A stretch of 64,000 bases of DNA, taken from Haloferax larsenii JCM 13917. Lineage in GTDB: Archaea > Halobacteriota > Halobacteria > Halobacteriales > Haloferacaceae. Both the position numbers and the translations under genes were made by a program. Below, piece after piece: positions 40,836 through 64,000 of this stretch; positions within the stretch are counted from its first letter, which is position 1, and each line of letters opens with the position of its first letter. The notes under the pieces are model-generated. The model saw nothing but the letters and a program-made list of their open reading frames with translations. It was not told where the DNA came from and made no database searches. The stretch is from assembly GCF_000336955.1 (NCBI RefSeq), contig NZ_AOLI01000006.1:63224-127223 (forward strand), given 5' to 3'.

Positions 40836-40882
40836 CCGAGTCGGGGCTTCGGGCTACCGAGTCGAGTCGTCGGATTACCGAA
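40833..40882. repeat. Degenerate repeats at the convergent ends of the aldolase and carbonic anhydrase genes
   Basis: Copies of TAACCGAGTCG, CTACCGAGTCG and TTACCGAATCG occur in this gap. Each contains a stop codon on one strand or the other, and the first and last copies include the real stops of the two genes. Confidence 0.6.
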
Positions 40883-41570
40883 TCGATTTCACGCGGTCGG
40901 CGAACTCGTCTGGGACCCACTCGACGATGGTTTCGGGGTCCGAATCACCGTTCGCGGCGACGAGGTACGCCGCCCCGTCGTCGTCGCCGTAGGCGCGCTG
41001 GAAGTCGTAGACGAAGCCCCAGCAGTCGGTCGATTCGGGAATCTCGTCACTCTCGGTGAGGAACTCTACTTGTCTGACGACGGCGTACTCGACCAGACGG
41101 TTGACGGCGTCATCGGTCGGCGTCTCTTCGTCGAAGATTCCCAATTCTCGCGCCTCTTCGACGAGCGGAACGAGACGCGAAACAGCGGCTTCGACGGCCA
41201 CCGGAAGGTCGTTCGCGTCGTCACCGACGACGTACTCGTAGGCTGCTGTGATTCCACCGCACCCCGTGTGTCCGAGGACGACGATATCTGAGACGCCGAG
41301 CGAGGTGACTGCGTAGCCGACGACGTCGTTGACGACGAGTCGGCCGTCGACTTCGGTCCACACCTGATTGGCGACGTTGACCGATTTGAAGAGTTCCCCC
41401 GCCTTGTCGGTGTTCCAGAGTGCTTCGACTGGAACGCGAGAGTCCGAGCACCCGACGGTGACGACGTGTGGCGTTTGCCTGTCTCGAAGCCCCTCGAAGT
41501 AATCTGCGTCGAGGTGCTCGACGTGGTATTTGTTTCCAGCCACGAGCGATTCCAGAACCGAATTCGACAT
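40875..41570 (-). CDS. Beta-class carbonic anhydrase
   Basis: This 231-residue enzyme interconverts CO2 and bicarbonate. The zinc ligands Cys41, His101 and Cys104 and the Asp43/Arg45 dyad (GCSDSR and GHTGCGG) are all present, typical of beta-carbonic anhydrase. It is cytoplasmic. The DabA and DabB genes for inorganic-carbon uptake lie directly upstream on the same strand, 96 bases away. A perfect inverted repeat overlaps its promoter. Together this suggests it helps set the cytoplasmic CO2/HCO3- balance of an inorganic-carbon accumulation module. Confidence 0.93.
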   Translation of the reverse strand: MSNSVLESLVAGNKYHVEHLDADYFEGLRDRQTPHVVTVGCSDSRVPVEALWNTDKAGELFKSVNVANQVWTEVDGRLVVNDVVGYAVTSLGVSDIVVLGHTGCGGITAAYEYVVGDDANDLPVAVEAAVSRLVPLVEEARELGIFDEETPTDDAVNRLVEYAVVRQVEFLTESDEIPESTDCWGFVYDFQRAYGDDDGAAYLVAANGDSDPETIVEWVPDEFADRVKSIR

Positions 41571-41605
41571 TACGTCATACTAACGCTCTTCTGACGTAAA
41601 TAGCT
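41571..41605 (-). promoter_or_regulatory. Inverted repeat in the carbonic anhydrase promoter
   Basis: TACGTCA at 41571-41577 and TGACGTA at 41592-41598 form a perfect 7-base inverted repeat with a 14-base spacer. It lies between a TATA-like GCTATTTA (minus strand, near 41598-41605) and the start codon. This position would let a regulator block transcription initiation. Confidence 0.55.
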
Positions 41606-41666
41606 TCGACGGGTGAACAGTCACCGCAGGCCATCGCTGCCGAACAGACGCCCGGCAGCCACCCAA

Positions 41667-44159
41667 TCAGTCGTCTGCGGCGGGTGGCGCGGCGCGTTCG
41701 GCAGTCAGTTCGGGCTCTTCGGCCGCGTCGCGTCCGTGTTTGTCTGCCGTTTCAGCAGCGACCCACGTCAGATTCTCGTCGTACTCGAACGCGGTATCGT
41801 TCTGCGTCGGGTCCACCACAGTCAGCGAGAGCCAGCCGTTGTCCAGGAGTTCGGTGACGGCGGCATTCGCTTCGAGGACGGACGTCACACGGTCGACCGG
41901 GGCGTGAATCACCGTCGAGAGACGGAGTGGTTGGTGGAATGGGTCGTCGTCGGCCGCCTTGACTGACTGGAGCGGCAGCCCCGTCATCAGGTCGCCACCG
42001 TTCCCTTGGTAGACGCCGACGTTACCGACCGGGTTGTGGGTAATCTTCGACCCGCTCCCGTAGACTGCGTTGTCCACGGTCGAGAAGTAGTACTGCATGT
42101 TTATCCACTGAGTGACGACCATGGGACCGGACACGATGGCCGCGAGGGCCTCACCAGAGTCGTCGTCTCGCCAGTCGTAGGAGTGGAGGAACGACCGACC
42201 GTCGAGGTCGAGACCCTCCGTCAGCGACCGAGGACCGATGACGAAGCCCGCGTTGCCGGCGAGTCCCCATTCGGGGCGCGTCTCGGCCCAGTCCGCGGCG
42301 CGGCGTTCGGCCTCCCGAGTTCCCGGAGCAGACGCGTCCATCGACTCTGTCCGTTCCGCGGCGGCACCCTCCCGGGCCGTTTCGAGGTCCGAACGGAGCT
42401 GTTCGAGGTCTTCCTCGTGACTTTCGGGAACAGGCCCGGTAAAGAGCGTCACCTCGTCCGTCGTCGTGTTGTGCTCGCCCGCGACGAAGACGGTGTCCGA
42501 CGGGATGTCGAACCCGCGGTCGCGGAGTTCGGCCTTGACCTCGTCGTCGTTGCAGATGGCCGCGAGGACACGAGCACTCGGGCCGCCAGCGTTGCCGGCA
42601 CAGGCACCGCAGTCGAGGCTGGACTCGAACGGGTTGTTCGCAGTCTGGCTGGCGTGGCCGACGAACGCGACGATGCGCGCGAACTCGTCCCAACCCATCA
42701 GTTCGAACGCGGTCTCGGCGTACTCGACTCTCTCTGCCGTAGACAGCCCTTGTGGCAGGTCGCTGTCGGCGGTCGAGTCCCCATCGAGTGCCGGTTCGCA
42801 GAAGTCTGCGTCGGAGGGAACCCACTCTGACGCGCCGGTGAGGAAGTCGTACACGCGCGACGGGAAGAGCGTCCGCGCCGTGAGGGCGGCCCCGTAACCG
42901 ACGCCGGTGCTTTCGACGAAACTGAACACGGTCGCCGCGTTCGAGGTGAGTGATTTGAGGACGTTTCCGGCGGCACTGGTCGTGTTCGTCCACGTGTCGT
43001 AGCGGTCGTGTTCGTGGTCGCACCCCTCGGCCGGGCGGTCGGCGACGTAGTGTTGGGCGTCGAGAATCGGCGGGCAGGCGTCTATCGCGACGTTGGAGTC
43101 GTAGGCCTCGTAGCGCATCGGAATCCCAAAGAAGCCCGCGTAGCCGTAAGTCTCGTAGGCACCGGCGTCCTCGATATGCCGGCGGATGACCTCCGAGCGC
43201 GTGTCGATACAGAAGACGAGTTGTGCGTCCGGGCGACCACCGTCTTCAAGGGCGATGGCTGGCTGGCTCCCTTCGGCCGCGGCTGGCGATTGCTTTTGGT
43301 CGGCAATCGCCTCGACCAGTTCGGTGCGGTAGGTGGCCTCCCACGCGTCCAGCCAGATTTCGGGAAGCGGGACTTTCTCGTCGTGTTGGAGGTTGCGTTC
43401 AGACTGCGTCGATTCTACCGCACCATCCGTCGGGCCGAGCGGCGCATCGAAGAGGTCCGTGAGAACCATCCTGACGGCCAGATACTCCGTGAGCGTGATG
43501 GGGTAGGTAGCCTGCCAGTCGCCACCGTTTTCAGCCCGCTGTTTGATGAACCCGGTCCACCCCGGCAGCCGTCCGAGATGGAACTCGAAGAGGTCCACCA
43601 GCTGGTCCCGCGGATACGCGGAGACGACCTGGTCGATTGCCTCCGTCGGGTCGTCGGGGTAGGTGGCGACGGCGCTCGGGTCAGGAAGCGACCCATCGTG
43701 GCGCGCCACGGACTGAAACGCGGCGTAGAACCCGCGTTCACGGTTCGGCATCGGCCACGAAGCGTGCCCCTCGTCGAGGAATGCGGCGAGCCACTTCGTC
43801 AAGGCCGTATCGACGACGTCGTGTTGACTCGACTCGGCGTCCTCGGTGGCCGACTCCGCTTGGGTCTCCATGCGCGCCAAGAGAGTCGAGAGGTCCTTCT
43901 CGTAGCCGTGGTCGCGCAGTTCGCGCCGAAGCGTCTCCCGGTCGATTTGCCCCGTTTCGAGCGCGGCGCGAAACACGTCCGCACTCGGGTAGCCGCGACC
44001 GCCGAACAGGTGTTCGGCCTGTTCGACGGCCTCGTGGAACGGGCGGTCTTCGAACCCGCTGAGTGGATTGGCCGTCACGAAGGAGTGAAGCGGCCAGACC
44101 GACCCGACGCTGGTTGCTGCCTGTTCGATGGTGTCGCGAATCGTCTCGTTAGTACTCAT
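41667..44159 (-). CDS. dabA: Inorganic-carbon accumulation protein DabA (DUF2309)
   Basis: This 830-residue soluble protein belongs to the DUF2309/UPF0753 family, the DabA subunit of the DAB inorganic-carbon accumulation system. Its zinc site resembles beta-carbonic anhydrase: Cys317 and Asp319 in VFCIDTRSE, His502 in GHASQT and Cys517 in DCGACAG. The C-to-D and H-to-C spacings match the known DabA enzyme. DabA with DabB is thought to couple cation flow to one-way CO2 hydration inside the cell. It overlaps dabB by 11 bases, showing tight coupling. Confidence 0.93.
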   Translation of the reverse strand: MSTNETIRDTIEQAATSVGSVWPLHSFVTANPLSGFEDRPFHEAVEQAEHLFGGRGYPSADVFRAALETGQIDRETLRRELRDHGYEKDLSTLLARMETQAESATEDAESSQHDVVDTALTKWLAAFLDEGHASWPMPNRERGFYAAFQSVARHDGSLPDPSAVATYPDDPTEAIDQVVSAYPRDQLVDLFEFHLGRLPGWTGFIKQRAENGGDWQATYPITLTEYLAVRMVLTDLFDAPLGPTDGAVESTQSERNLQHDEKVPLPEIWLDAWEATYRTELVEAIADQKQSPAAAEGSQPAIALEDGGRPDAQLVFCIDTRSEVIRRHIEDAGAYETYGYAGFFGIPMRYEAYDSNVAIDACPPILDAQHYVADRPAEGCDHEHDRYDTWTNTTSAAGNVLKSLTSNAATVFSFVESTGVGYGAALTARTLFPSRVYDFLTGASEWVPSDADFCEPALDGDSTADSDLPQGLSTAERVEYAETAFELMGWDEFARIVAFVGHASQTANNPFESSLDCGACAGNAGGPSARVLAAICNDDEVKAELRDRGFDIPSDTVFVAGEHNTTTDEVTLFTGPVPESHEEDLEQLRSDLETAREGAAAERTESMDASAPGTREAERRAADWAETRPEWGLAGNAGFVIGPRSLTEGLDLDGRSFLHSYDWRDDDSGEALAAIVSGPMVVTQWINMQYYFSTVDNAVYGSGSKITHNPVGNVGVYQGNGGDLMTGLPLQSVKAADDDPFHQPLRLSTVIHAPVDRVTSVLEANAAVTELLDNGWLSLTVVDPTQNDTAFEYDENLTWVAAETADKHGRDAAEEPELTAERAAPPAADD

Positions 44160-45636
44160 TGTACTCCTCTCTGGTTGTTACGGTCGTTCCCGGCGCAGGC
44201 CGCGTCGCATTCACGAGTGCCATGTACAATCGGGTGCTGCGCCGGTAGACGCCGCTCTCGATGGTGGCGTACGCCAAGACGAACGCCGCGGCGACGACGA
44301 CGTGAACGAGCGTCAGTTCGGTGGGGGCCGTGACGAACGGCACCCCGACTAAGGCGTGTTCGATAGTCTTGTAGACAAACGCGTACATCCCGATTGCCGG
44401 CAGGAACACGAGCGGAATCGCTCCGAACCGAAGGAACGTCGGAAGCGCCGCGTGGCGTATCGTCTCACGAGTGGCGTGCATCGTGGTCAGCACGACGAGT
44501 CCCGCGAGCAGCAATCCGCTATCGAAGGCGGTTCCCTCTCCGGTCGTGACGGCGAACAGGGCACCCCCCGCGAGTGCCGTCAGGACAGTCACCACGAATC
44601 CGGTGACTCCCACCGATTGTTTCGCGGCGAACTTCCCATCGGGGCTTCCCTGTTCGACGGTGCCTCCCGCGGACAGGAACTGGTACGCTTTGTAGAATCC
44701 GTGGAGGATGAGGTGGGTGATGGCGGCACCGAAAAATCCGAGTCCCGCCTGCATGAACATGAACCCCATCTGTCCGACGGTCGAACAGCCGAGTTTCCCC
44801 TTGACGTCCGTCTGGACCGTCTTGAGGAGCTTTCCGAGGAGGGCACTCGTCGCGCCCACGACCACGATTGCCAGCATGAAGCCGCGGTCGACAGTGACGA
44901 CCGGTGCGAACCGGAGTAACAGGATACCGCCCGCGTTGACGAATCCCGCGTGCATCAGTGCCGACGCGGGCGTCGGTGCTGTCATCGACGACAGCAACCA
45001 CGTGTGGAACGGGAGTAGCGCGGACTGAATCATCGCCGCCAGCAGGAGCATCGCAACCGCAAACAGAACGGTCCCGGTAGGTGCAATCTCCGCCGAGGCG
45101 ACGGCGGAGACAGTCGACGCGCCGGTTTCCCACCACAGCGTCGCGAAGGCGACTGCCAGCAGTGCACTGCTTCCCGCAAAGTACCGACGTGCGTGGGCGG
45201 CCGCCGTACGCGCGTGGCGCCAAGAGTCGACGTGGCCGATGAGGTTGGCCATCACGAGGCCCATCGTCAGCCACAGCACCGCGAACACGGCAAGCGAGTC
45301 CGTCGCGACCAGTACCATCACGACGAGCGTGAACGCGAAGACGTTGCCGAAGAATTTGTTGAGCGCGCTATCTCCGGCCATGTAGCGCCGCGAGTAGCTG
45401 TGGACGATTCCGCTGAAGAACGTCACGACGACCCACATCACGACTGTCAGCCCATCGACGGAGAACAGTCCCAGAAGCGACCAGTTCTCGGAACCGGACA
45501 GTCGGAGGGAGGCTACCACGAGACTCGCCACCCACAGAAGCCACACGACTCGCGTGAGAACCTGCGGGAGTTGCGGCGTCGCCGTCGTCGTCTTCGGTAG
45601 CGATCCGACCCGAGTGAATCTCGTCTCGTCTGTCAT
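44149..45636 (-). CDS. dabB: Inorganic-carbon accumulation membrane subunit DabB (NuoL-like)
   Basis: This 495-residue membrane protein with about 12-14 helices is related to the proton-translocating NuoL/MrpA antiporter subunits. The core GIVHSYSRRYMAGDSALNKFF and GFVNAGGILLLRFAPV match the proton-conducting membrane transporter family. Its pairing with dabA, overlapping by 11 bases, identifies it as DabB rather than a complex I subunit. It should supply H+ (or Na+) flux to drive DabA. A 400-base non-coding region upstream contains an inverted repeat around a TATA-like box, so control of dabB-dabA probably acts there. Confidence 0.92.
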   Translation of the reverse strand: MTDETRFTRVGSLPKTTTATPQLPQVLTRVVWLLWVASLVVASLRLSGSENWSLLGLFSVDGLTVVMWVVVTFFSGIVHSYSRRYMAGDSALNKFFGNVFAFTLVVMVLVATDSLAVFAVLWLTMGLVMANLIGHVDSWRHARTAAAHARRYFAGSSALLAVAFATLWWETGASTVSAVASAEIAPTGTVLFAVAMLLLAAMIQSALLPFHTWLLSSMTAPTPASALMHAGFVNAGGILLLRFAPVVTVDRGFMLAIVVVGATSALLGKLLKTVQTDVKGKLGCSTVGQMGFMFMQAGLGFFGAAITHLILHGFYKAYQFLSAGGTVEQGSPDGKFAAKQSVGVTGFVVTVLTALAGGALFAVTTGEGTAFDSGLLLAGLVVLTTMHATRETIRHAALPTFLRFGAIPLVFLPAIGMYAFVYKTIEHALVGVPFVTAPTELTLVHVVVAAAFVLAYATIESGVYRRSTRLYMALVNATRPAPGTTVTTREEYNEY

Positions 45637-46036
45637 CGTTTTGGGCTATGGCAGTCCGTGAGTCCCTCTCGACGGGAGTGGGCCAATCACTGACTGTCCT
45701 CTTCTCGCCTATAGAACGAACACATTCACTATTAAAATCTTCTATCCGAACAATTCGTTCTCTAGATTACCCATGAAAGAACATTATGGTCTGTGGTGAC
45801 AAGTACCAAACCAGTGCGAGAACCCAGACGAGAAACGCTGTTCACCGGCTACACACCGTCTCACCCTCGTTCGTCGTCTAACGTCATCCGTGCCGGATTT
45901 CGCGACTAGTTCTGAGTTCACAAACAGTTCGAGACCTGGCGCGATTTCAAGCAAATCGTTCGTCGGACACGGACAGAGGTGAAAACGCAGTCGTGTGCTG
46001 TGGCGCTGTGCGGTTACTCCGCGCGACCAGCCACAG
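45637..46036. promoter_or_regulatory. 400-base non-coding region upstream of dabB-dabA
   Basis: No open frame longer than a few dozen codons fills this gap between the Lrp regulator and dabB. It contains the perfect inverted repeat AGAACGAA/TTCGTTCT described separately and a TATA-like ATTTTAAT (minus strand). The outer part nearest the regulator holds no clear motif. Confidence 0.5.
45713..45761 (-). promoter_or_regulatory. Inverted repeat flanking the dabB-dabA promoter
   Basis: AGAACGAA at 45713-45720 and TTCGTTCT at 45754-45761 form a perfect 8-base inverted repeat with a 33-base spacer. The TATA-like ATTTTAAT (minus strand) lies at its centre. A TATA at that point predicts a transcript start near 45708 and a leader of about 70 bases. 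Confidence 0.55.
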
Positions 46037-46519
46037 TCACTCGGTCGTCGAGGACTCGTCGCCCTTGAACCCGCCGAAGGGCGTCGTCTTGTGGCTCCGA
46101 ACGAGTACCTCGTCGGCGACGGTCAACCCAAGGTCAAGCAGTTCCTGTGCGACCGGTGTGACGTCGTCGTCGTTTTCGCCGATGACGGTGACGAGGAGGT
46201 TCTTCTCGCCCGTGACGAGTTCCTGCACCGAGACGACGCCGTCGATAGCGAGGATGTCGTCGATGATGGCCCCGCGTTCGGGTATCGGAGCGGTACAGAA
46301 CAACAGCATCCGAAGCGGGTAGCCGGAGGCCTGATAGTCGATTTCGGCGCGGTATCCCTTGATGACAGACCGGTCTTCGAGGCGCTGGATTCGCTTTCGG
46401 ACCGTGCTGCCCGAGGTCCCCGCCCGTTCGGCGATGTCGCCGGACGACATGTTTCGAGCGTCCTCCTGCAGCGCGTGGAGGATTGCGCTGTCCACGTCGT
46501 CGATGTCGTTTTTGGCCAT
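46037..46519 (-). CDS. Lrp/AsnC-family transcriptional regulator
   Basis: This 160-residue regulator has an N-terminal helix-turn-helix (AILHALQEDARNMSSGDIAE then AGTSGSTVRKRIQRLED) and a C-terminal RAM domain (residues about 65-140). Such proteins bind DNA as dimers or octamers and respond to amino acids or other metabolites. It is on the same strand and directly upstream of the dab operon, separated by 400 bases, and may regulate it. The predicted HTH would suit a palindromic site such as the one at 45713-45761, but binding is only hypothesised. Confidence 0.87.
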   Translation of the reverse strand: MAKNDIDDVDSAILHALQEDARNMSSGDIAERAGTSGSTVRKRIQRLEDRSVIKGYRAEIDYQASGYPLRMLLFCTAPIPERGAIIDDILAIDGVVSVQELVTGEKNLLVTVIGENDDDVTPVAQELLDLGLTVADEVLVRSHKTTPFGGFKGDESSTTE

Positions 46520-46564: not shown

Positions 46565-48367
46565 TCAACGGTCGTCCGAATCGGTGCCCGAGCGGTCTTC
46601 GACAGCAGCCTCGTTTTCTTCGTCGGGAGTCTCCACGGCGTCGCCCCAGACGAAGGAGTCGTCTGTGTCCGGCGACTCAGTGGAGGAATCGTCTGTGTCC
46701 GGCGACTCGGTGGAGGAATCGTCTGAGCCCGCCGACTCGGTGTAGGAATCGTCTGAGCCCGCCGACTCGGTGGGCGTCTCTGCCACTCCGTCGTCGGTCG
46801 ACGCCTCCGTCGCCTCGTCGTCGTCCGGTTCAGATACGTCCGGCGCGTCGACGGTGACGCCTAGGGCGGCCTGTCGTGCACGGCGGCGCTCTTCGCGGCG
46901 TTCCGCGAGGGCATCTCTGAGCCTGTCGTTCAACGTCTCACGCAGGCCAACCGCGTCGTCAGCACCGATATCGACGGCCGCGGCGTCGCCACCGACGAGC
47001 GAGAGGCTGCCTGCGGTGTCTGCGGTCACGGTGGCGACGCGCCAGCGACGCTGGAAGATGGTTCGGGTGTCGATAATCGTCTGAATCCGATAGTACGGGA
47101 CGAAACGCGTCTCGCGCTTCCAGAAGCCGTTTCGGGTGACCACGTGGTCGTCGGTCAGTCCGTAGCCGCGATGTCGCCACTGATAGACTCCAGCGACGAT
47201 AGCGACCGGAACGAGCGCGAGTGGGACGTACCACGGAATCGCTCTGTCGAGGAGCGTGTTCGCACCGAACAGGGCGAGCGCGATTGCTCCGAGGGCGAGC
47301 GAGTAACGGACGGCGTACCGGCGGCGGATTCGTTTCGGTGGGCGCTCGTAGGTCGGTTCGGCCACGCCTTCGAGGTCGTCTACGAGCGAGCGGACGCGCT
47401 CGCGCCGGGCGAGGGGAATCGCCGCTTCCGACCCGCGACCGACGCTCGACCCGTTTCGGCTGTCGCCGCTGGGGGCGTATCCCGCGGTTTCGATGAGGAG
47501 CGTCGCGAATCCGAAGTGCCGCTTGAGCGGGTTGTCCTCGATGGTGAGTGTCTGGAGTTTGTCGAGCGGAATCGACCCGTTGTAGCGCTGGAGGAGGCCG
47601 CGTTCGTACTGGAGTTCGTCGCCGACGCGAGTCAGTCGGAAGTCGTAGTAGTTGACCACGGCGCGGACGAATCCGGCACCCCACGAGACGAGCGCCACGA
47701 GGAGGACCAGCCCCCCGAGTCCGAGTGCCGTGGCGACGACCCCGCTGGTCGGGAGGGGAACGTCGATATACGACGACGCGACGGGAAACGCGGACGTGAC
47801 GAAGACGAAGACGAGACCGGGCAGTCGCAAGTCGAACGAGAGGGCACCGACGATACCCAGTTCTCGCGGGGCCAACTCGAACAGGACTTCGCGGTCGGGT
47901 TCGGTCGCCTCCCCCGCCGTCTCACCGCGCTTCAGTCGGGCGACTTCCGTCTGGATTCGGAGCGCCTCGTCGTACGAGACGAATCGGAGACTGCCTTCGG
48001 TTTCGCCGCCGCCGGCGGTTTCGAGGTTCACCGCCGCGATGCCGAAGAGACGTTGGGCGACGTTCCGCGAGATATCGACGTTCTGGATGCGACGATAGGG
48101 AATCTCGCGGTTTCGACGGCCGAAGACGCCGGAGCGAATGTCGAAGGTGTCGGGCGTGAGTTCGTACTCGAATCGTTGGTAGTAGGCGAGTTCGTAGCCC
48201 GCAATGGCGAGTACGAGCGAGCCGAGGAGGATGATGCCGCCGAACGCACCCAGGAAGCCGCCGAAGGCCGCCCCGCCGGAGAAGACGAAGAAGGCGACGG
48301 CGAACACGATGCTGACGCTTCGCTGGGCCGCGCGGTACGGAACAGAGAGTGGCGACAGATGGCTCAT
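46565..48367 (-). CDS. PH-domain (YdbT-like) membrane protein
   Basis: This 600-residue protein has several membrane segments and three PH-like (bPH2/DUF304) segments, with recurring phrases such as VPYYRIQTIIDTRTIFQRRW, IPYRRIQNVDISRNVAQRLF and IPLDKLQTLTIEDNPLKRHF. These are typical of YdbT-type proteins of unknown function in bacteria and archaea. The C-terminal tail (about 100 residues) is acidic and includes four tandem repeats. It overlaps the smaller YdbS-like gene by four bases, so the two form an operon. Confidence 0.85.
   Translation of the reverse strand: MSHLSPLSVPYRAAQRSVSIVFAVAFFVFSGGAAFGGFLGAFGGIILLGSLVLAIAGYELAYYQRFEYELTPDTFDIRSGVFGRRNREIPYRRIQNVDISRNVAQRLFGIAAVNLETAGGGETEGSLRFVSYDEALRIQTEVARLKRGETAGEATEPDREVLFELAPRELGIVGALSFDLRLPGLVFVFVTSAFPVASSYIDVPLPTSGVVATALGLGGLVLLVALVSWGAGFVRAVVNYYDFRLTRVGDELQYERGLLQRYNGSIPLDKLQTLTIEDNPLKRHFGFATLLIETAGYAPSGDSRNGSSVGRGSEAAIPLARRERVRSLVDDLEGVAEPTYERPPKRIRRRYAVRYSLALGAIALALFGANTLLDRAIPWYVPLALVPVAIVAGVYQWRHRGYGLTDDHVVTRNGFWKRETRFVPYYRIQTIIDTRTIFQRRWRVATVTADTAGSLSLVGGDAAAVDIGADDAVGLRETLNDRLRDALAERREERRRARQAALGVTVDAPDVSEPDDDEATEASTDDGVAETPTESAGSDDSYTESAGSDDSSTESPDTDDSSTESPDTDDSFVWGDAVETPDEENEAAVEDRSGTDSDDR
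46659..46778. repeat. Four tandem 30-base repeats in the PH-protein tail
   Basis: Units at 46659-46688, 46689-46718, 46719-46748 and 46749-46778 encode SDDS-x-TES-containing decapeptides at the protein C-terminus. The first two and last two are nearly identical, indicating recent duplication; copy number is likely to vary. Confidence 0.75.
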
Positions 48368-58710: not shown

Positions 58711-58769
58711 CCGGTCTCCCGTCTCCAGTCCTCCGTTTTCTTGTCAGTGAGTGGTAACGCGGGTGTCGC

Positions 58770-58777
58770 TTATACCG
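58770..58777 (+). promoter_or_regulatory. TATA box of the AMP phosphorylase gene
   Basis: TTATACCG lies 21-28 bases before the ATG at 58798, as expected for a leaderless haloarchaeal gene. Confidence 0.55.
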
Positions 58778-58797
58778 TTCTCGCGCCAATCCCAGCT

Positions 58798-60276
58798 ATG
58801 GAACTCGTCGCCGACCCGGTCGATATCGGAACTCGCGCGCCCACGGTTCTTCTCAACGAGGCGGACGCGGCGGAACTCGGTGTTCACGCGCTCGAACGCG
58901 TGCAACTCCGGCGCGACGGCCGGACCACCATCGGCATCGTCGAACTCACCGACGAACTCGTCGAGCCCGGAACACTCGGGGTGACGCGTCGACTCGGCCA
59001 CATCGAAGGCTCGGTCGAGGTGTCGGTCGCACCGCAACCGAACTCGGTGTACTACATTCGGAAGAAACTCGATGGTATCGAACTCGAAGCGGACGAAATC
59101 GAGCGTATCGTCCGCGACATCTACGAGGACCGACTCGCGGACGCGGAGCTCAGCGCCTACGTCTCCGCCTCGTACACACAGGGACTGTCGATGGAAGAGA
59201 CGATGCACCTCACCGAGTGTATGGCCAACATCGGCGAGCGTATGTCGTGGTCCGAGGACATCGTCGCCGACAAGCACTCTATCGGGGGCGTCGCGGGCAA
59301 CCGCGTCACGCCGATTCTCGTTCCAATCGTCGCCGCGGCGGGACTGAAGATTCCGAAGACCTCGTCGCGGGCGGTCACGTCCGCGGCCGGGACCGCCGAC
59401 ACGATGGAAGTGCTGTGCGACGTCGACTTCTCTATCGACGAGATTCGAGACATCGTCGACGAGACCGGCGGCTGTCTCGTCTGGGGCGGCGCAGTGAACC
59501 TCTCGCCGGTCGACGACCGAATCATCCGGGTCGAGACCCCGCTTTCTATCGACCCGCGCGGGCAACTCATCGCGTCGGTCCTCTCGAAGAAAGAAAGCGC
59601 CGGCTCGACGCACGTCGTCGTCGATATCCCCTACGGAGAAGGGGCGAAAGTGGCGAGTCTCGCCGAGGCACGCGAACTCGCCGAGGACTTCAAACGCGTC
59701 GGCAGTCACCTCGGCATGTCCATCGAATGCGCCATCACGAACGGCGCGGCACCCGTGGGGCGCGGTGTCGGCCCTATCCTCGAAGCCCGCGACGTGCTCG
59801 CCACTCTCGCAGGCGACGGCCCCAACGACTTGCGAGTGAAGTCGATACGACTCGCCGAGCTCCTGTTCGAGTGTGCCGGTATCGACGCGGACGCGACCGA
59901 AATCCTCGACTCGGGGCAGGCCCGCGAGACGTTCCGAGAGATAATCGCCGCGCAGAACGGCGACCCTGACGTGGCGGCGTCCGACCTCTCGCCGGGCCGC
60001 CACACTCACACCGTCCGCTCCGACAACAACGGCGTGGTCACGCACATCAACAACCGCCTCGTCAACGAAGTCGCCAGACGCGCCGGCGCACCCAAGGACG
60101 CAGGGGCGGGTATCGACCTCCACTGTCGCGTCGGTGAGACGGCCGCAGTCGGCGACGCGCTCTTTACTATCCACGCGGAGTCCCCCGACAAACTCACAGA
60201 CGCCGAGGATTTGGTTGGTCGCGTGGATACCGTGAGAGTTCGACATCCCGACGAGGCGCTCGTCGACCGGGTCTGA
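58798..60276 (+). CDS. deoA: AMP phosphorylase (DeoA family)
   Basis: This 492-residue enzyme is the archaeal DeoA that phosphorolyses AMP (and CMP/UMP) to the base and ribose-1,5-bisphosphate. The phosphate-binding DKHSIGGVAGNR is at 158-169, with KTSSRAVTSAAGTADTMEV following. The archaeal N-terminal extension of about 85 residues is present and distinguishes it from bacterial thymidine phosphorylase. Ribose-1,5-bisphosphate then goes to the isomerase encoded 100 bases downstream. The start at 58798 has a TATA box about 27 bases upstream. Confidence 0.93.
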   Translation: MELVADPVDIGTRAPTVLLNEADAAELGVHALERVQLRRDGRTTIGIVELTDELVEPGTLGVTRRLGHIEGSVEVSVAPQPNSVYYIRKKLDGIELEADEIERIVRDIYEDRLADAELSAYVSASYTQGLSMEETMHLTECMANIGERMSWSEDIVADKHSIGGVAGNRVTPILVPIVAAAGLKIPKTSSRAVTSAAGTADTMEVLCDVDFSIDEIRDIVDETGGCLVWGGAVNLSPVDDRIIRVETPLSIDPRGQLIASVLSKKESAGSTHVVVDIPYGEGAKVASLAEARELAEDFKRVGSHLGMSIECAITNGAAPVGRGVGPILEARDVLATLAGDGPNDLRVKSIRLAELLFECAGIDADATEILDSGQARETFREIIAAQNGDPDVAASDLSPGRHTHTVRSDNNGVVTHINNRLVNEVARRAGAPKDAGAGIDLHCRVGETAAVGDALFTIHAESPDKLTDAEDLVGRVDTVRVRHPDEALVDRV

Positions 60277-60375
60277 ACCGAGTGGGTCGATTCGAGTGGC
60301 TCCCTCTCCGCGTCGCGGGGTGGCCACCCCTCACCTCGGCAACCATTTTTCCCCACTACCTGCGTACCCCAAGGT

Positions 60376-61329
60376 ATGGACGAGCGCGTACACCCCGAGG
60401 TCCGACGCGTCGCGGCGGACATCGACACGATGGAAGTTCGCGGTGCGGCGACCATCGCGGACGCGGTGGCTCGGGCCCTCAGAACACAGGCCGAAGAGAG
60501 CGACGCGACCGACCCGGAGGCGTTCCGCGCCGAACTCCGCGCGGCGGCCCGTGCGCTCCACGAGACGCGACCAACAGCGGTCAGTCTCCCCAACGCGCTC
60601 CGGTACGTCCTGCGCGGCATGTCGAGTACGACCGTCGAGGGTCTCCGGCAGGACATCGTCAAGTCGGCAGACGACTTCTGCCAGCGACTCGACAGAGCGC
60701 AGGCGGACCTCGGTAAGGTCGGTGCGAACCGCCTCCGAGACGGCGACGTCATCATGACGCACTGTCATTCGACGGACGCCCTCGCGTGCGTCGAGGCGGC
60801 CGTCGAACAGGGCAAACACATCGAAGCTATCGTCAAGGAGACGCGACCGCGAAACCAGGGCCACATCACCGCGGAAGAACTCGCCGACATGGGCGTTCCC
60901 GTGACGCTCATCGTCGATTCGGCGGCCCGGCGCTACCTCAACGACGTGGACCACGTCCTCGTCGGCGCTGACGCCGTCGCCGCCGACGGGAGCGTCATCA
61001 ACAAAATCGGGACGAGTGGTCTCGCGGTCAACGCCCGCGACAGAGGAACGCCAATCATGGTCGCCTCGCAGACGCTCAAACTCCACCCGGGGACGCTCAC
61101 CGGCCACACAGTCGATATCGAGATGCGAGACACCGAGGAGATTATCGACGAGGAACGGCGCGAAGAAATCGGCAGTCCGAAGGTCGTCAACCCGGCGTTC
61201 GACGTGACGCCGCCGCGCTACGTCGACGCCATCGTCACCGAGCGGGGACAGTTCCCGCCCGAGAGCATCGTCACGCTGATGCGCGAACTCTTCGGTGAGG
61301 GAACGTCGGAGCCGTGGGCCGAACCCTGA
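60376..61329 (+). CDS. e2b2: Ribose-1,5-bisphosphate isomerase
   Basis: This 317-residue protein is homologous to eIF2B-like sugar-phosphate isomerases and converts ribose-1,5-bisphosphate to ribulose-1,5-bisphosphate, the RuBisCO substrate. Cys130 (THCHSTDA) and Asp199 (GADAVAADG) match the catalytic pair of the Thermococcus enzyme with the same 69-residue spacing. It follows deoA on the same strand and precedes the regulator and RuBisCO region, completing an AMP degradation route. It has no partner eIF2B gene here. Confidence 0.93.
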   Translation: MDERVHPEVRRVAADIDTMEVRGAATIADAVARALRTQAEESDATDPEAFRAELRAAARALHETRPTAVSLPNALRYVLRGMSSTTVEGLRQDIVKSADDFCQRLDRAQADLGKVGANRLRDGDVIMTHCHSTDALACVEAAVEQGKHIEAIVKETRPRNQGHITAEELADMGVPVTLIVDSAARRYLNDVDHVLVGADAVAADGSVINKIGTSGLAVNARDRGTPIMVASQTLKLHPGTLTGHTVDIEMRDTEEIIDEERREEIGSPKVVNPAFDVTPPRYVDAIVTERGQFPPESIVTLMRELFGEGTSEPWAEP

Positions 61330-61330
61330 G

Positions 61331-61363
61331 GGCGAGCGGACGGCGAGCGGACGGCGAGCTGAC
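61331..61363. repeat. Three tandem 11-base repeats after the isomerase gene
   Basis: GGCGAGCGGAC at 61331-61341 and 61342-61352, and GGCGAGCTGAC at 61353-61363. They begin two bases after the e2b2 stop and lie between it and the convergent Bat-type regulator gene. Confidence 0.8.
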
Positions 61364-61386
61364 GACGACCGACAACTGACGGCTGT

Positions 61387-62049
61387 CTACGGGTGGCCAA
61401 CGAGTTCGGACATCACTTTCATCTCGGCCTTTCGCAGGTGCTCTGCGGCGGTACTCGTCGAGCAGTCGAGTCGCTCCGCAACGTCTGCGACCGACCCCAA
61501 TCGCGGTTCTCGATAGTAGCCACACTCCACAGCAGCCTCGACGGCTTCCCGCTGTCGCGGTGAGAGCGACCCCGGCGACACGTCTGCCGGCCCCGAGTAC
61601 GGGCGGATTTTCAGAATCTCCACGTCGATGCCGTCGGGCGTGTCCTCGACCGCCGACTGGAGGGCATTGTCGGTGCCGACGAGCGTCACCGAAATCGAGC
61701 CGTCGCCGTCGAAGATGACCGGCGGAACGACGATGAGGTCGCCTTGGGTAATCGCCGCCGTCTGTCGCGCCCCCTTGGCGTCGAGTCGCTCGTTGACGAC
61801 GATGAAAAAGGAGTCGCCGGGCATCTGTTTCACCTCGTACGAGAGAATACCCGGCGTCGCCGCCAGCGCCTCCTCGTAGGCGTCGATATCGGAGCCGACG
61901 ATTTCGAAGATGATGGTGTTTTTGTCGGTCACCGTCGGGTTCCAGTGGTGCAACTTCGTCCGCTCGAACGCCTCGTGTTCGACGACGAACTCGTGCATCG
62001 GGTGCATCTGCTCGTCGTCCGGCTTGAATCGGAGTCCGACCGATTTCAT
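61387..62049 (-). CDS. Bat-type helix-turn-helix regulator
   Basis: This 220-residue protein has a C-terminal HTH_10 domain (LSPRQREAVEAAVECGYYREPRLG and then VADVAERLDCSTSTAAEHLRKAE) and an N-terminal sensory region (residues 1-155). It is convergent with e2b2 and divergent from nuoCD. Its promoter contains the strong TATA TTTTTATA at 62072-62079 (minus strand), so it is leaderless. Its position inside the AMP/RuBisCO region makes it a candidate regulator of those genes or of nuoCD, but no binding site is known. Confidence 0.87.
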   Translation of the reverse strand: MKSVGLRFKPDDEQMHPMHEFVVEHEAFERTKLHHWNPTVTDKNTIIFEIVGSDIDAYEEALAATPGILSYEVKQMPGDSFFIVVNERLDAKGARQTAAITQGDLIVVPPVIFDGDGSISVTLVGTDNALQSAVEDTPDGIDVEILKIRPYSGPADVSPGSLSPRQREAVEAAVECGYYREPRLGSVADVAERLDCSTSTAAEHLRKAEMKVMSELVGHP

Positions 62050-62071
62050 GTCCGGGTGTAATCAGATGGAG

Positions 62072-62079
62072 TATAAAAA
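62072..62079 (-). promoter_or_regulatory. Strong TATA box of the Bat-type regulator gene
   Basis: On the minus strand TTTTTATA lies 23-30 bases before the ATG at 62049, preceded by a G/C-rich BRE-like region (CGGCCGC). It is one of the best promoter matches in the window. Confidence 0.65.
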
Positions 62080-62144
62080 GCGGCCGCACTTGTGAGGCAG
62101 AATTCTGAATCGCGTCTTCGGAGAAACGTGACGTAATTCCACCA

Positions 62145-63824
62145 ATGTCTCTCGAATCTCCACAAACCGCGACCGATTCGGATGCCGCCGGTGTCGCCAC
62201 CACCGACGTCGACGCCGACGTGGTACGAAAGGTGCTCGGCGATTCTATCCTCGACCTCGACCAGCACGTCCACGCTCCCGAGGTGACGATTCGCCCCGAC
62301 GAAGTCCAAGCGGTCCTCTCGACGCTCCGAACCGACCTCGGGTTGGACCACCTCTCGTGTGTCACCGCACAGGAGTACGAAGACCGCTACGAGTCTATCT
62401 ACCACCTGAAATCGTACGACGACCCGACGCGCGAACTGAGTGTGGTCGTTCCCACGTCGCGGTCGGACCCCGTCAGCGAGTCGGCCGCGCCCGTCTTCGA
62501 GACGGCTGGCTGGCACGAGCGCGAGGCGTACGACCTCGTCGGCATCCACTACGACGACCATCCGGACCTGCGCCGTATTCTTCTGCCAGAGACGTGGCAA
62601 GGTCATCCACTCGGACGGGACTACGACCAGCGACGCCCGCAAATCGTGAAATACGACGAGAACGCGAATCCACTCCACAAAGACGGGTGGAGCGAGGACA
62701 ACACGATGCTTCTCAACATCGGGCCGCATCATCCCGCGACCCACGGCGTGATGCACCTCCAAGTCGTCCTCGACGGGGAGCAAGTCGTCGACGTGGAACC
62801 CGATATCGGGTACATCCATCGCTGCGAAGAGCAGATGTGCCAGCAGGGGACCTACCGACACCAGATTATGCCGTATCCCGACCGCTGGGACTGGGGTGGC
62901 GGCGGCCTGCTGAACGAGTGGGCCTACGCCCGCACCGCGGAGGAGTTAGCCGATATCGAGGTGCCGGAGTACGCACAGGTCGTTCGGACGATGGCGGCCG
63001 AGTTGAGTCGCATCCTCTCACACATGCTCGCGCTCGGTGCCTACGCGCTCGACGTCATCGGCGACTTCACCGCGACGTTCATGTACGCCATGCGGGACCG
63101 CGAACTCGTCCAGAACATCCTCGAAGACCTCACCGGACAGCGACTCATGTTCAACTACTTCCGGCTCGGTGGCGTCGTCTGGGACATTCCCGAACCGCGC
63201 GAGGCGTTCTTCGAGAAGGTTCGTGACTTCGTCGACGGACTCCCCGAAAAGCTCGAAGAGTACCACAACCTCCTCACGGCCAACGAGATTCTGCAGGCGC
63301 GAACGCTCGATACGGGCGTCCTTCCACCGGAGGTTGCCAAGAGCTACGGTGTGACTGGGCCAGTCGCCCGCGGGTCTGGCATCGACTACGACATCCGCCG
63401 CGACGACCCCTACGGCTACTACGACGAACTCGACTGGAACGTCGTCGTCGAAGACGACTGCGACAACTTCTCGCGCCTGCTCGTCCGGATGCGTGAGGTC
63501 GAGGAGTCAGCCAAGATTATCGACCAGTGTGCCGACCTGCTCGAAGACTGGCCGGAAGACGAACGGAACATCCAGGCGAACGTCCCCCGGACCATCAAGC
63601 CAGAGGAAGACACCGAAATCTACCGTGCCGTCGAGGCCGCGAAGGGCGAACTCGGTATCTACATCCGCGCCGACGGCACCGACAAACCGGCGCGCTTCAA
63701 GATTCGCGGCCCCTCGTTTTCGAACTTGCAGGCGCTTCCCGAGATGGCCGAAGGCGAGTACATCCCCGACCTCATCGCGGCTCTCGGCAGTCTCGACACG
63801 ATTATGGGCGAAGTCGACCGCTGA
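62145..63824 (+). CDS. nuoCD: Fused complex I subunit NuoCD
   Basis: This 559-residue protein fuses the NuoC (residues about 1-185) and NuoD subunits of NADH-quinone-oxidoreductase-like complex I. The NuoC signature WHEREAYDLVGIHYDDHPD at 123-141 and the NuoD quinone-site segment GPHHPATHG at 193-201 are visible, with GYIHRCEEQM close by. In the usual haloarchaeal order nuoCD lies between nuoB and nuoH, but here it stands alone: divergent from the Bat gene and convergent with a RuBisCO gene. It may be an extra copy or a split cluster. The overall sequence looks functional. Confidence 0.92.
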   Translation: MSLESPQTATDSDAAGVATTDVDADVVRKVLGDSILDLDQHVHAPEVTIRPDEVQAVLSTLRTDLGLDHLSCVTAQEYEDRYESIYHLKSYDDPTRELSVVVPTSRSDPVSESAAPVFETAGWHEREAYDLVGIHYDDHPDLRRILLPETWQGHPLGRDYDQRRPQIVKYDENANPLHKDGWSEDNTMLLNIGPHHPATHGVMHLQVVLDGEQVVDVEPDIGYIHRCEEQMCQQGTYRHQIMPYPDRWDWGGGGLLNEWAYARTAEELADIEVPEYAQVVRTMAAELSRILSHMLALGAYALDVIGDFTATFMYAMRDRELVQNILEDLTGQRLMFNYFRLGGVVWDIPEPREAFFEKVRDFVDGLPEKLEEYHNLLTANEILQARTLDTGVLPPEVAKSYGVTGPVARGSGIDYDIRRDDPYGYYDELDWNVVVEDDCDNFSRLLVRMREVEESAKIIDQCADLLEDWPEDERNIQANVPRTIKPEEDTEIYRAVEAAKGELGIYIRADGTDKPARFKIRGPSFSNLQALPEMAEGEYIPDLIAALGSLDTIMGEVDR

Positions 63825-63860
63825 CTGGCAAAAAACAGGTTCGTTGCGGACGCGGCGTGC

Positions 63861-64000
63861 TTACCGCGGCGTCTCGGTGCCCCACTTGTCGAGGGCGACC
63901 GCGAGTTCCGGCGTCTCGTCTGCGACTTCTTGGATGGACTTGCCGTCGACGTAGCCGTCGATGGCGGCCCGAAGCGCGACTGCTCCGGCGCGGGTGCCGT
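63861..64000 (-). CDS. rbcL: C-terminus of ribulose-1,5-bisphosphate carboxylase large subunit (partial)
   Basis: The minus strand ends in a frame reading GTRAGAVALRAAIDGYVDGK then SIQEVADETPELAVALDKWG, with a TAA stop at 63861-63863. This matches the C-terminal helices of RuBisCO large subunits of the archaeal (type III-like) form. Only about 45 codons are inside the window, and the active-site residues lie outside. The placement beside deoA and e2b2 supports a role in the AMP pathway. A 36-base gap separates it from nuoCD. Confidence 0.72.
   Translation of the reverse strand, partial: GTRAGAVALRAAIDGYVDGKSIQEVADETPELAVALDKWGTETPR

Follow-up and report, generated by a model that had tools for sequence, protein, structure and literature searches.

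Pumps for inorganic carbon of the DAB family pair a cytoplasmic subunit resembling β-carbonic anhydrases (DabA) with a NuoL-like membrane subunit (DabB). In the cryo-electron microscopy study of DAB2, the zinc is held by two cysteines, one histidine and a water molecule, while Asp353 of DabA2 pairs with Arg355 and holds the zinc water (PMC13144422). In staphylococci, the joint operation of a bicarbonate transporter and a carbonic anhydrase (CA) is reported to have brought no benefit (PMC8552792). The presence of DAB in haloarchaea was pointed out in 2017 (PMC5700660), dabAB of Haloferax volcanii was annotated in 2021 (PMC8305020), and the complex was stated for the class Halobacteria in 2024 (PMC10880623). 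Here, a DAB locus is described from a stretch of 64,000 nucleotides of Haloferax larsenii JCM 13917 (contig NZ_AOLI01000006.1; hereafter the window), whose locus genes all lie on the minus strand in the transcription order lrp, dabB, dabA and β-CA. The locus quite probably represents a self-contained lrp-dabB-dabA cassette that provides bicarbonate for housekeeping under a dedicated Lrp-type regulator, with a separately transcribed β-CA beside it.

The identities of the genes, the conservation of catalytic residues and of the operator, the co-occurrence of the regulator and the position of the cassette were computed here in a survey of 195 genomes of the order and of 92 DAB loci; a further set, partly overlapping with the first, comprised 80 named loci. 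Hfx. volcanii itself lies outside the genome set compared. The source genome (3.7 Mb, 99.9% complete) encodes one DabA and one β-CA. At the DAB locus, the named species closest to it are Hfx. elongans, whose proteins are 95-99% identical, and Hfx. mucosum. A preliminary annotation made from the letters alone (the sequence-only reading) had considered DAB noteworthy in a heterotrophic haloarchaeon. The complex is real here, but it was published between 2017 and 2024 and DabA is present in 90 of the 195 genomes (46%). Profile matches confirmed all four genes at the positions proposed by that reading, and full-length matches to DabA and DabB fully support the DAB identification.

The regulator gene (46037..46519, minus strand; 160 amino acids (aa), HTH_AsnC-type profile, 49 bits) is located 400 bp 5' of dabB, in agreement with the Lrp/AsnC regulator expected upstream of the dab genes, and the gap between them holds a separate dabB promoter element. 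Its predicted fold comprises a helix-turn-helix and a β-α-β-β-α-β (RAM-like) C-terminal domain (model pLDDT, the predicted local distance difference test, of 71), and the model matches Lrp/AsnC structures in Foldseek at E 1e-9; the Pfam model of the Lrp C-terminal domain gave no match in this protein. Lrp matches in the 195 genomes split into two groups, orthologues with at least 66% identity and paralogues with at most 52%. An orthologue is present in 88 of the 90 DAB genomes versus one of the 105 genomes without DAB (Fisher test, 3e-52). As for the two DAB genomes without a full orthologue, the gene is cut by a contig end in one (G025), and the contig ends just 5' of dabB in the other (G011). 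In the set of named loci, all 80 have the orthologue 5' of dabB and in the same orientation; overall it nearly always directly precedes dabB. DAB thus has Lrp as an almost obligatory partner, and the regulator is the most informative component of the locus.

The predicted promoter and operator core of dabB (45713..45762, minus strand) consists of GAAC (45757-45760), the TATA box TTTTAATA (45730-45737) and GTTC (45718-45721), the TATA box being placed between the two half-sites. GAAC and GTTC separated by exactly 35 bases occur upstream of dabB in 80 of the 92 loci; dinucleotide shuffling gives an expectation of 0.9 loci (maximum 3), and other spacings from 10 to 60 are found in 2.5 loci on average (maximum 8). 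The inner site often reads CGAAC-N5-GTTCG, a palindrome of the kind bound by Lrp proteins, and most loci contain a third GTTC farther upstream, which in the window lies within the element ACCATAATGTTCTTTCAT (45773..45790, minus strand; kept in most relatives). In the whole genome, a 50-position site model finds a single significant place, at dabB (E 6.6e-9; next E 0.39); in relatives, the sequences used for model building among them, it finds essentially one site per locus. Since the dabB site is the only significant one in the genome, Lrp has the appearance of a local switch dedicated to dabBA, and the association of regulator and site suggests that Lrp may bind there. Second DAB copies with the order dabA-dabB (L070 in G062, L075 in G070) carry neither Lrp nor operator, and form a second type of haloarchaeal DAB. 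In many relatives, lrp is preceded by recurrent words, among them ACGTACAA and GTAAAGTG, which differ from the dabB operator. No description of a DAB-Lrp link or of the operator in archaea was found in the open-access literature, and an earlier account in a subscription journal is possible; the Lrp partner and the operator are apparently undescribed before.

The dabA gene (41667..44159, minus strand; 830 aa) matches PF10070 over its full length (1-747 of 747, 877 bits), and its product shares 34% identity with DabA2 (PDB ID: 9rd0). Residues tested or described in the DAB2 study (PMC13144422) were mapped by alignment onto the window proteins. The sequence-only reading had assigned four zinc ligands to DabA, namely Cys317, Asp319, His502 and Cys517, with the spacing of the known enzyme. 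Their positions are right (they align with Cys351, Asp353, His524 and Cys539 of Halothiobacillus neapolitanus DabA2), and Cys317, His502 and Cys517 correspond to ligands, whereas Asp319 corresponds to the partner of Arg321. The C-x-D and H-x14-C spacings are identical, but the intervening stretch counts 183 residues here and 171 in H. neapolitanus. The relay residues are kept (Ser322, His563 and Asp568 in the alignment to 9rd0), as is Glu416 of the membrane finger, which belongs to the proton path; Leu633, at the position of the CA glutamine, is a leucine as in DAB2. Every active-site residue tested by mutation in DAB2 is kept in the window DabA, and all 91 haloarchaeal DabA sequences aligned share C317, D319, R321, E416, H502, C517, H563 and L633. 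Such residue conservation is strong evidence for membership in the DAB family.

The dabB gene (44149..45636, minus strand; 495 aa, Proton_antipo_M, 122 bits) overlaps dabA by 11 bases (44149-44159) as first noted from the sequence, an overlap length found in 48 loci and more often than any other in the order. Its product is 28% identical to DabB2 and retains the proton-path residues Ser225, His229, Lys279, Ser285, His308, His312 and Lys316, all seven of which are invariant in 91 of 91 haloarchaeal DabB proteins. Absent are the NuoL-type ion pairs of transmembrane helices 5 and 7 (R182/D185/K235 of DabB2), replaced by Ala, Ser and Gln in the window protein, where Gln204 is the counterpart of Lys235. 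Across haloarchaeal DabB, position 235 is Gln in 90 of 91 proteins and Arg in one, position 182 is mostly aliphatic, and position 185 is Ser, Gly or Thr. Five plasmid-borne bacterial DabB proteins all keep Arg182 and an acidic residue at position 185, with Lys (three), Arg (one) or Ala (one) at position 235. The loss of these residues in haloarchaeal DabB has apparently no earlier description. Alanine at the ion-pair positions of DabB2 lowers the DAB2-dependent growth yield by 30-60%, while complementation persists (PMC13144422). As such substitutions weaken growth rather than abolish it, it is plausible that the complex of haloarchaea works, with a different coupling; and as the mutants still complement, the ion pairs constitute a variant trait and not a criterion for membership.

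The same replacements could be read as the signature of a sodium-driven complex that imports bicarbonate with sodium, the loss of the ion pairs reflecting sodium use. Haloarchaea inhabit brines with molar sodium, Ser and Gln have taken the place of the charged helix 5 and 7 residues of bacterial DabB in nearly all haloarchaea sampled, and staphylococcal MpsAB has been argued to use sodium (PMC13144422). However, no variation occurs among the residues of the proposed proton path or at the zinc site that hydrates CO2, and DAB2 has no sodium requirement (PMC13144422), which makes a sodium-driven importer unlikely.

The β-CA gene (40875..41570, minus strand; 231 aa, Pfam Pro_CA, 88 bits) was recognized by its motif positions and by alignment to solved β-CAs. 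Its active site is complete, with Cys41, the Asp43-Arg45 dyad, His101, Cys104 and the transition-state glutamine Gln32. The gene does follow dabA directly, as the sequence-only reading had stated, starting 96 bp downstream; but it is preceded, 32 nt upstream of the start, by its own TATA-like box TATTTAC (41596..41602, minus strand), a putative promoter element common to four Haloferax relatives of the same layout. In a congener without DAB at this place, the CA is preceded by TATATAG at -30. Because of the 96-bp gap and the conserved TATA-like box, the CA need not belong to the dab operon. Of the 92 loci, 29 have a canonical CA at most 8 kb from DAB; they cover 15 genera and four arrangements. 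Genomes carry one or two CA genes each in about 3.5 Mb, so this proximity is far above chance and a functional tie between CA and DAB is likely. Of the proposed 'complete module', the part concerning Lrp holds, whereas a canonical CA is near fewer than a third of the loci, and in this lineage the CA keeps its neighbours in a relative that carries DAB elsewhere.

That CA and DAB form one co-regulated operon here and act as one machine is unlikely. Their common strand and short gap would be in keeping with an operon, as would the recurrence of a nearby CA in several genera; however, the CA has its own TATA box and lacks the operator, it occupies the same site without DAB in the congener G126, and no CA is found near most DAB loci. 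Placement of the CA under the dabB operator was likewise rejected, the one significant site of the genome being that of dabB. At about 10 loci from 8 genera (L062, L071, L072, L081, L067 and others), a β-CA-like gene lies between lrp and dabB on the dabB strand. It lacks the Cys-x-Asp-x-Arg dyad (with CSM instead in several cases) and keeps His-x2-Cys; possibly it is a sensor or a remnant.

In G126, the same CA gene directly adjoins the gene of a PH-domain protein (bPH_2; 46565..48367, minus strand, in the window), and the block of about 5 kb containing lrp-dabBA is absent there; its own DAB is on another contig. In the DabA tree, Haloferax falls into two separate lineages, that of the window grouping with Halogeometricum limi (support 0.998) and the other with Halorubrum and Natronomonas. 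The latter is found at another locus in Hfx. gibbonsii, Hfx. prahovense, Hfx. sulfurifontis and Hfx. massiliensis, and is about 63% identical. Given the absence of the block beside the CA in G126 and the two DabA lineages, lrp-dabB-dabA seems to have been transferred in one piece, in one direction or the other. The site of the G126 DAB contains unrelated genes in the window genome, so there is no clean pair of donor and empty site. In Haloarcula, lrp-dabB-dabA is located on megaplasmids.

The linkage of lrp and dabB persists where a CA-like gene, or an amidohydrolase-like gene of opposite orientation, intervenes; in one genome (G051), the lrp orthologue is 56 kb away from dabB. The amidohydrolase-like gene (VNAHTHxGD motif) is divergent from the dabB promoter; besides L111 (5070-6161, minus strand), about 20 loci have it between lrp and dabB. 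The usual ligands of Lrp/AsnC proteins are amino acids, there are about 10 Lrp paralogues in haloarchaea, and one genome carries the orthologue without DAB, from which it might be argued that Lrp regulates something else, e.g., amino-acid metabolism, and is linked to DAB passively. This is very improbable: presence and absence of the orthologue track DAB almost perfectly, the 50-nt operator is found at dabB only, and the linkage outlasts varied insertions between the two genes. In the sole DAB-free genome with the orthologue (G010), the region 6517-13506 of L214 (C1:1797000-1815000) contains genes for a NarK-like MFS protein, UspA and Lrp, followed by a convergent pair for a CooC-like ATPase and CooS, an anaerobic CO dehydrogenase (TIGR01702, 611 bits). 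Upstream of the MFS gene, the operator is weakly matched (16 bits), and β-CA is also missing from this genome. At the proteobacterial plasmid loci inspected, dabB has a LysR regulator as its neighbour and not Lrp, which agrees with COGNAT.

The sequence-only reading had proposed that the pump could supply either RuBisCO or anaplerotic carboxylases. RuBisCO supply was rejected because DAB and RuBisCO show no association (RuBisCO is present in 33 of 90 DAB genomes versus 32 of 105 without DAB; Fisher p 0.37) and because the local RuBisCO belongs to an AMP-salvage gene set. This set comprises AMP phosphorylase (58741..60276, plus strand; TIGR03327, 626 bits, cut-off 535), ribose-1,5-bisphosphate isomerase (60376..61329, plus strand; TIGR00511, 489 bits, cut-off 314) and the large subunit of a type III RuBisCO, whose 3' end is at 63861..64000 (minus strand; TIGR03326, 657 bits, cut-off 497) and whose gene runs past the window; the whole stretch 58741-64000, near a NuoCD-like gene, represents a nucleotide-salvage set. 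A CO2-concentrating device feeding this RuBisCO is the least probable of the alternatives, since its one support, a gene about 20 kb from dabA in the window genome and in Hfx. mucosum, is outweighed by the independent distribution, by a type III enzyme in place of the Calvin-cycle client that an autotrophic mechanism would have, and by G126, in which CA and RuBisCO have kept their place but a different contig carries DAB.

The better half of that proposal, supply to anaplerotic or other carboxylases, is favoured over RuBisCO. DAB is enriched in genomes that lack β-CA (17 of 21, versus 68 of 148 with CA; p 0.004), and for this reason it most likely feeds bicarbonate to housekeeping carboxylases. 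Two of the four genomes with neither DAB nor β-CA are less than 90% complete; therefore, the contrast is if anything stronger. Such a role, the likeliest one, would parallel that in staphylococci (PMC6689103, PMC8552792).

For the DAB activity, the coupling ion, the DNA binding of Lrp and the signal and sign of its response, we infer the following scheme. DabB would let protons, or some other cation, flow down the membrane potential, and DabA, plugged into DabB by its membrane finger, would couple this flow to one-way hydration of CO2 at the buried zinc. The cytoplasm would be filled with bicarbonate for housekeeping carboxylases and not for a CO2-fixing cycle; candidate clients are acetyl/propionyl-CoA carboxylase, phosphoenolpyruvate or pyruvate carboxylase, and carbamoyl-phosphate synthetase. 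Lrp would bind the repeated GAAC/GTTC half-sites straddling the dabB TATA box and switch dabBA with the supply of inorganic carbon, while the neighbouring β-CA, made from its own transcript, would interconvert CO2 and bicarbonate when CO2 is plentiful. Several points weigh against the housekeeping cassette proposed here. The lost ion-pair residues of DabB could mean an altered coupling, and 69 of the 90 haloarchaeal DAB genomes also carry β-CA, contrary to the staphylococcal picture (PMC8552792). Genome and locus counts are uncorrected for shared ancestry, the AlphaFold model of the window DabA (pLDDT 56; predicted template modelling score, pTM, 0.38) is of too low confidence to be used for the zinc site, and no data on the activity, binding or expression of a haloarchaeal DAB were found in the literature.

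The sensing and securing of inorganic carbon in archaea have been little studied. The pump itself is already known; for the regulatory unit and for the DabB variant, there seems to be no earlier description. A regulator that tracks the pump, together with a strictly spaced, genome-unique operator, offers a testable handle in a genetically tractable genus. The results favour a housekeeping role for DAB, as a source of bicarbonate in heterotrophic archaea, and challenge the view, derived from Firmicutes, that DAB and carbonic anhydrase are alternatives to each other. More tentatively, Lrp might be a dedicated archaeal regulator responsive to inorganic carbon, which senses CO2, bicarbonate or a metabolite reporting carboxylation demand and switches dabBA via half-sites that clasp the TATA box, within a cassette that moves between haloarchaeal lineages as a unit and whose pump works beside CA without the bacterial ion pairs.

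Among the described systems, DAB2 of H. neapolitanus (PDB ID: 9rd0) shares with the window complex both subunits, the zinc site, the Asp-Arg dyad, the leucine in place of the CA glutamine, the DabA proton-path glutamate and all tested DabB proton-path residues. The two differ at the level of overall identity (34% for DabA, 28% for DabB) and by the replacement of Arg182, Asp185 and Lys235. The Lrp-type regulator of the window contrasts with the LysR-type neighbour in the proteobacterial plasmid DAB copies inspected, and the local RuBisCO is of type III. Other haloarchaeal Lrp/AsnC proteins, such as the Lrp beside glnA in Hfx. mediterranei and CsmR in Hfx. volcanii, belong to the same family with a similar fold; they have other genomic partners, and the papers examined on them report no link to DAB. 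The dabAB genes of Hfx. volcanii (HVO_2410/HVO_2411), annotated as a predicted CO2 transporter (PMC8305020), represent the same family in the same genus. MpsAB of Staphylococcus aureus is likewise a DAB-family bicarbonate supply in a heterotroph and is interchangeable with CA (PMC6689103, PMC8552792); it has been argued to be sodium-linked, and no Lrp partner is described in the MpsAB literature examined. MpsAB and CA seldom coexist in staphylococci, whereas haloarchaeal DAB and CA usually do.

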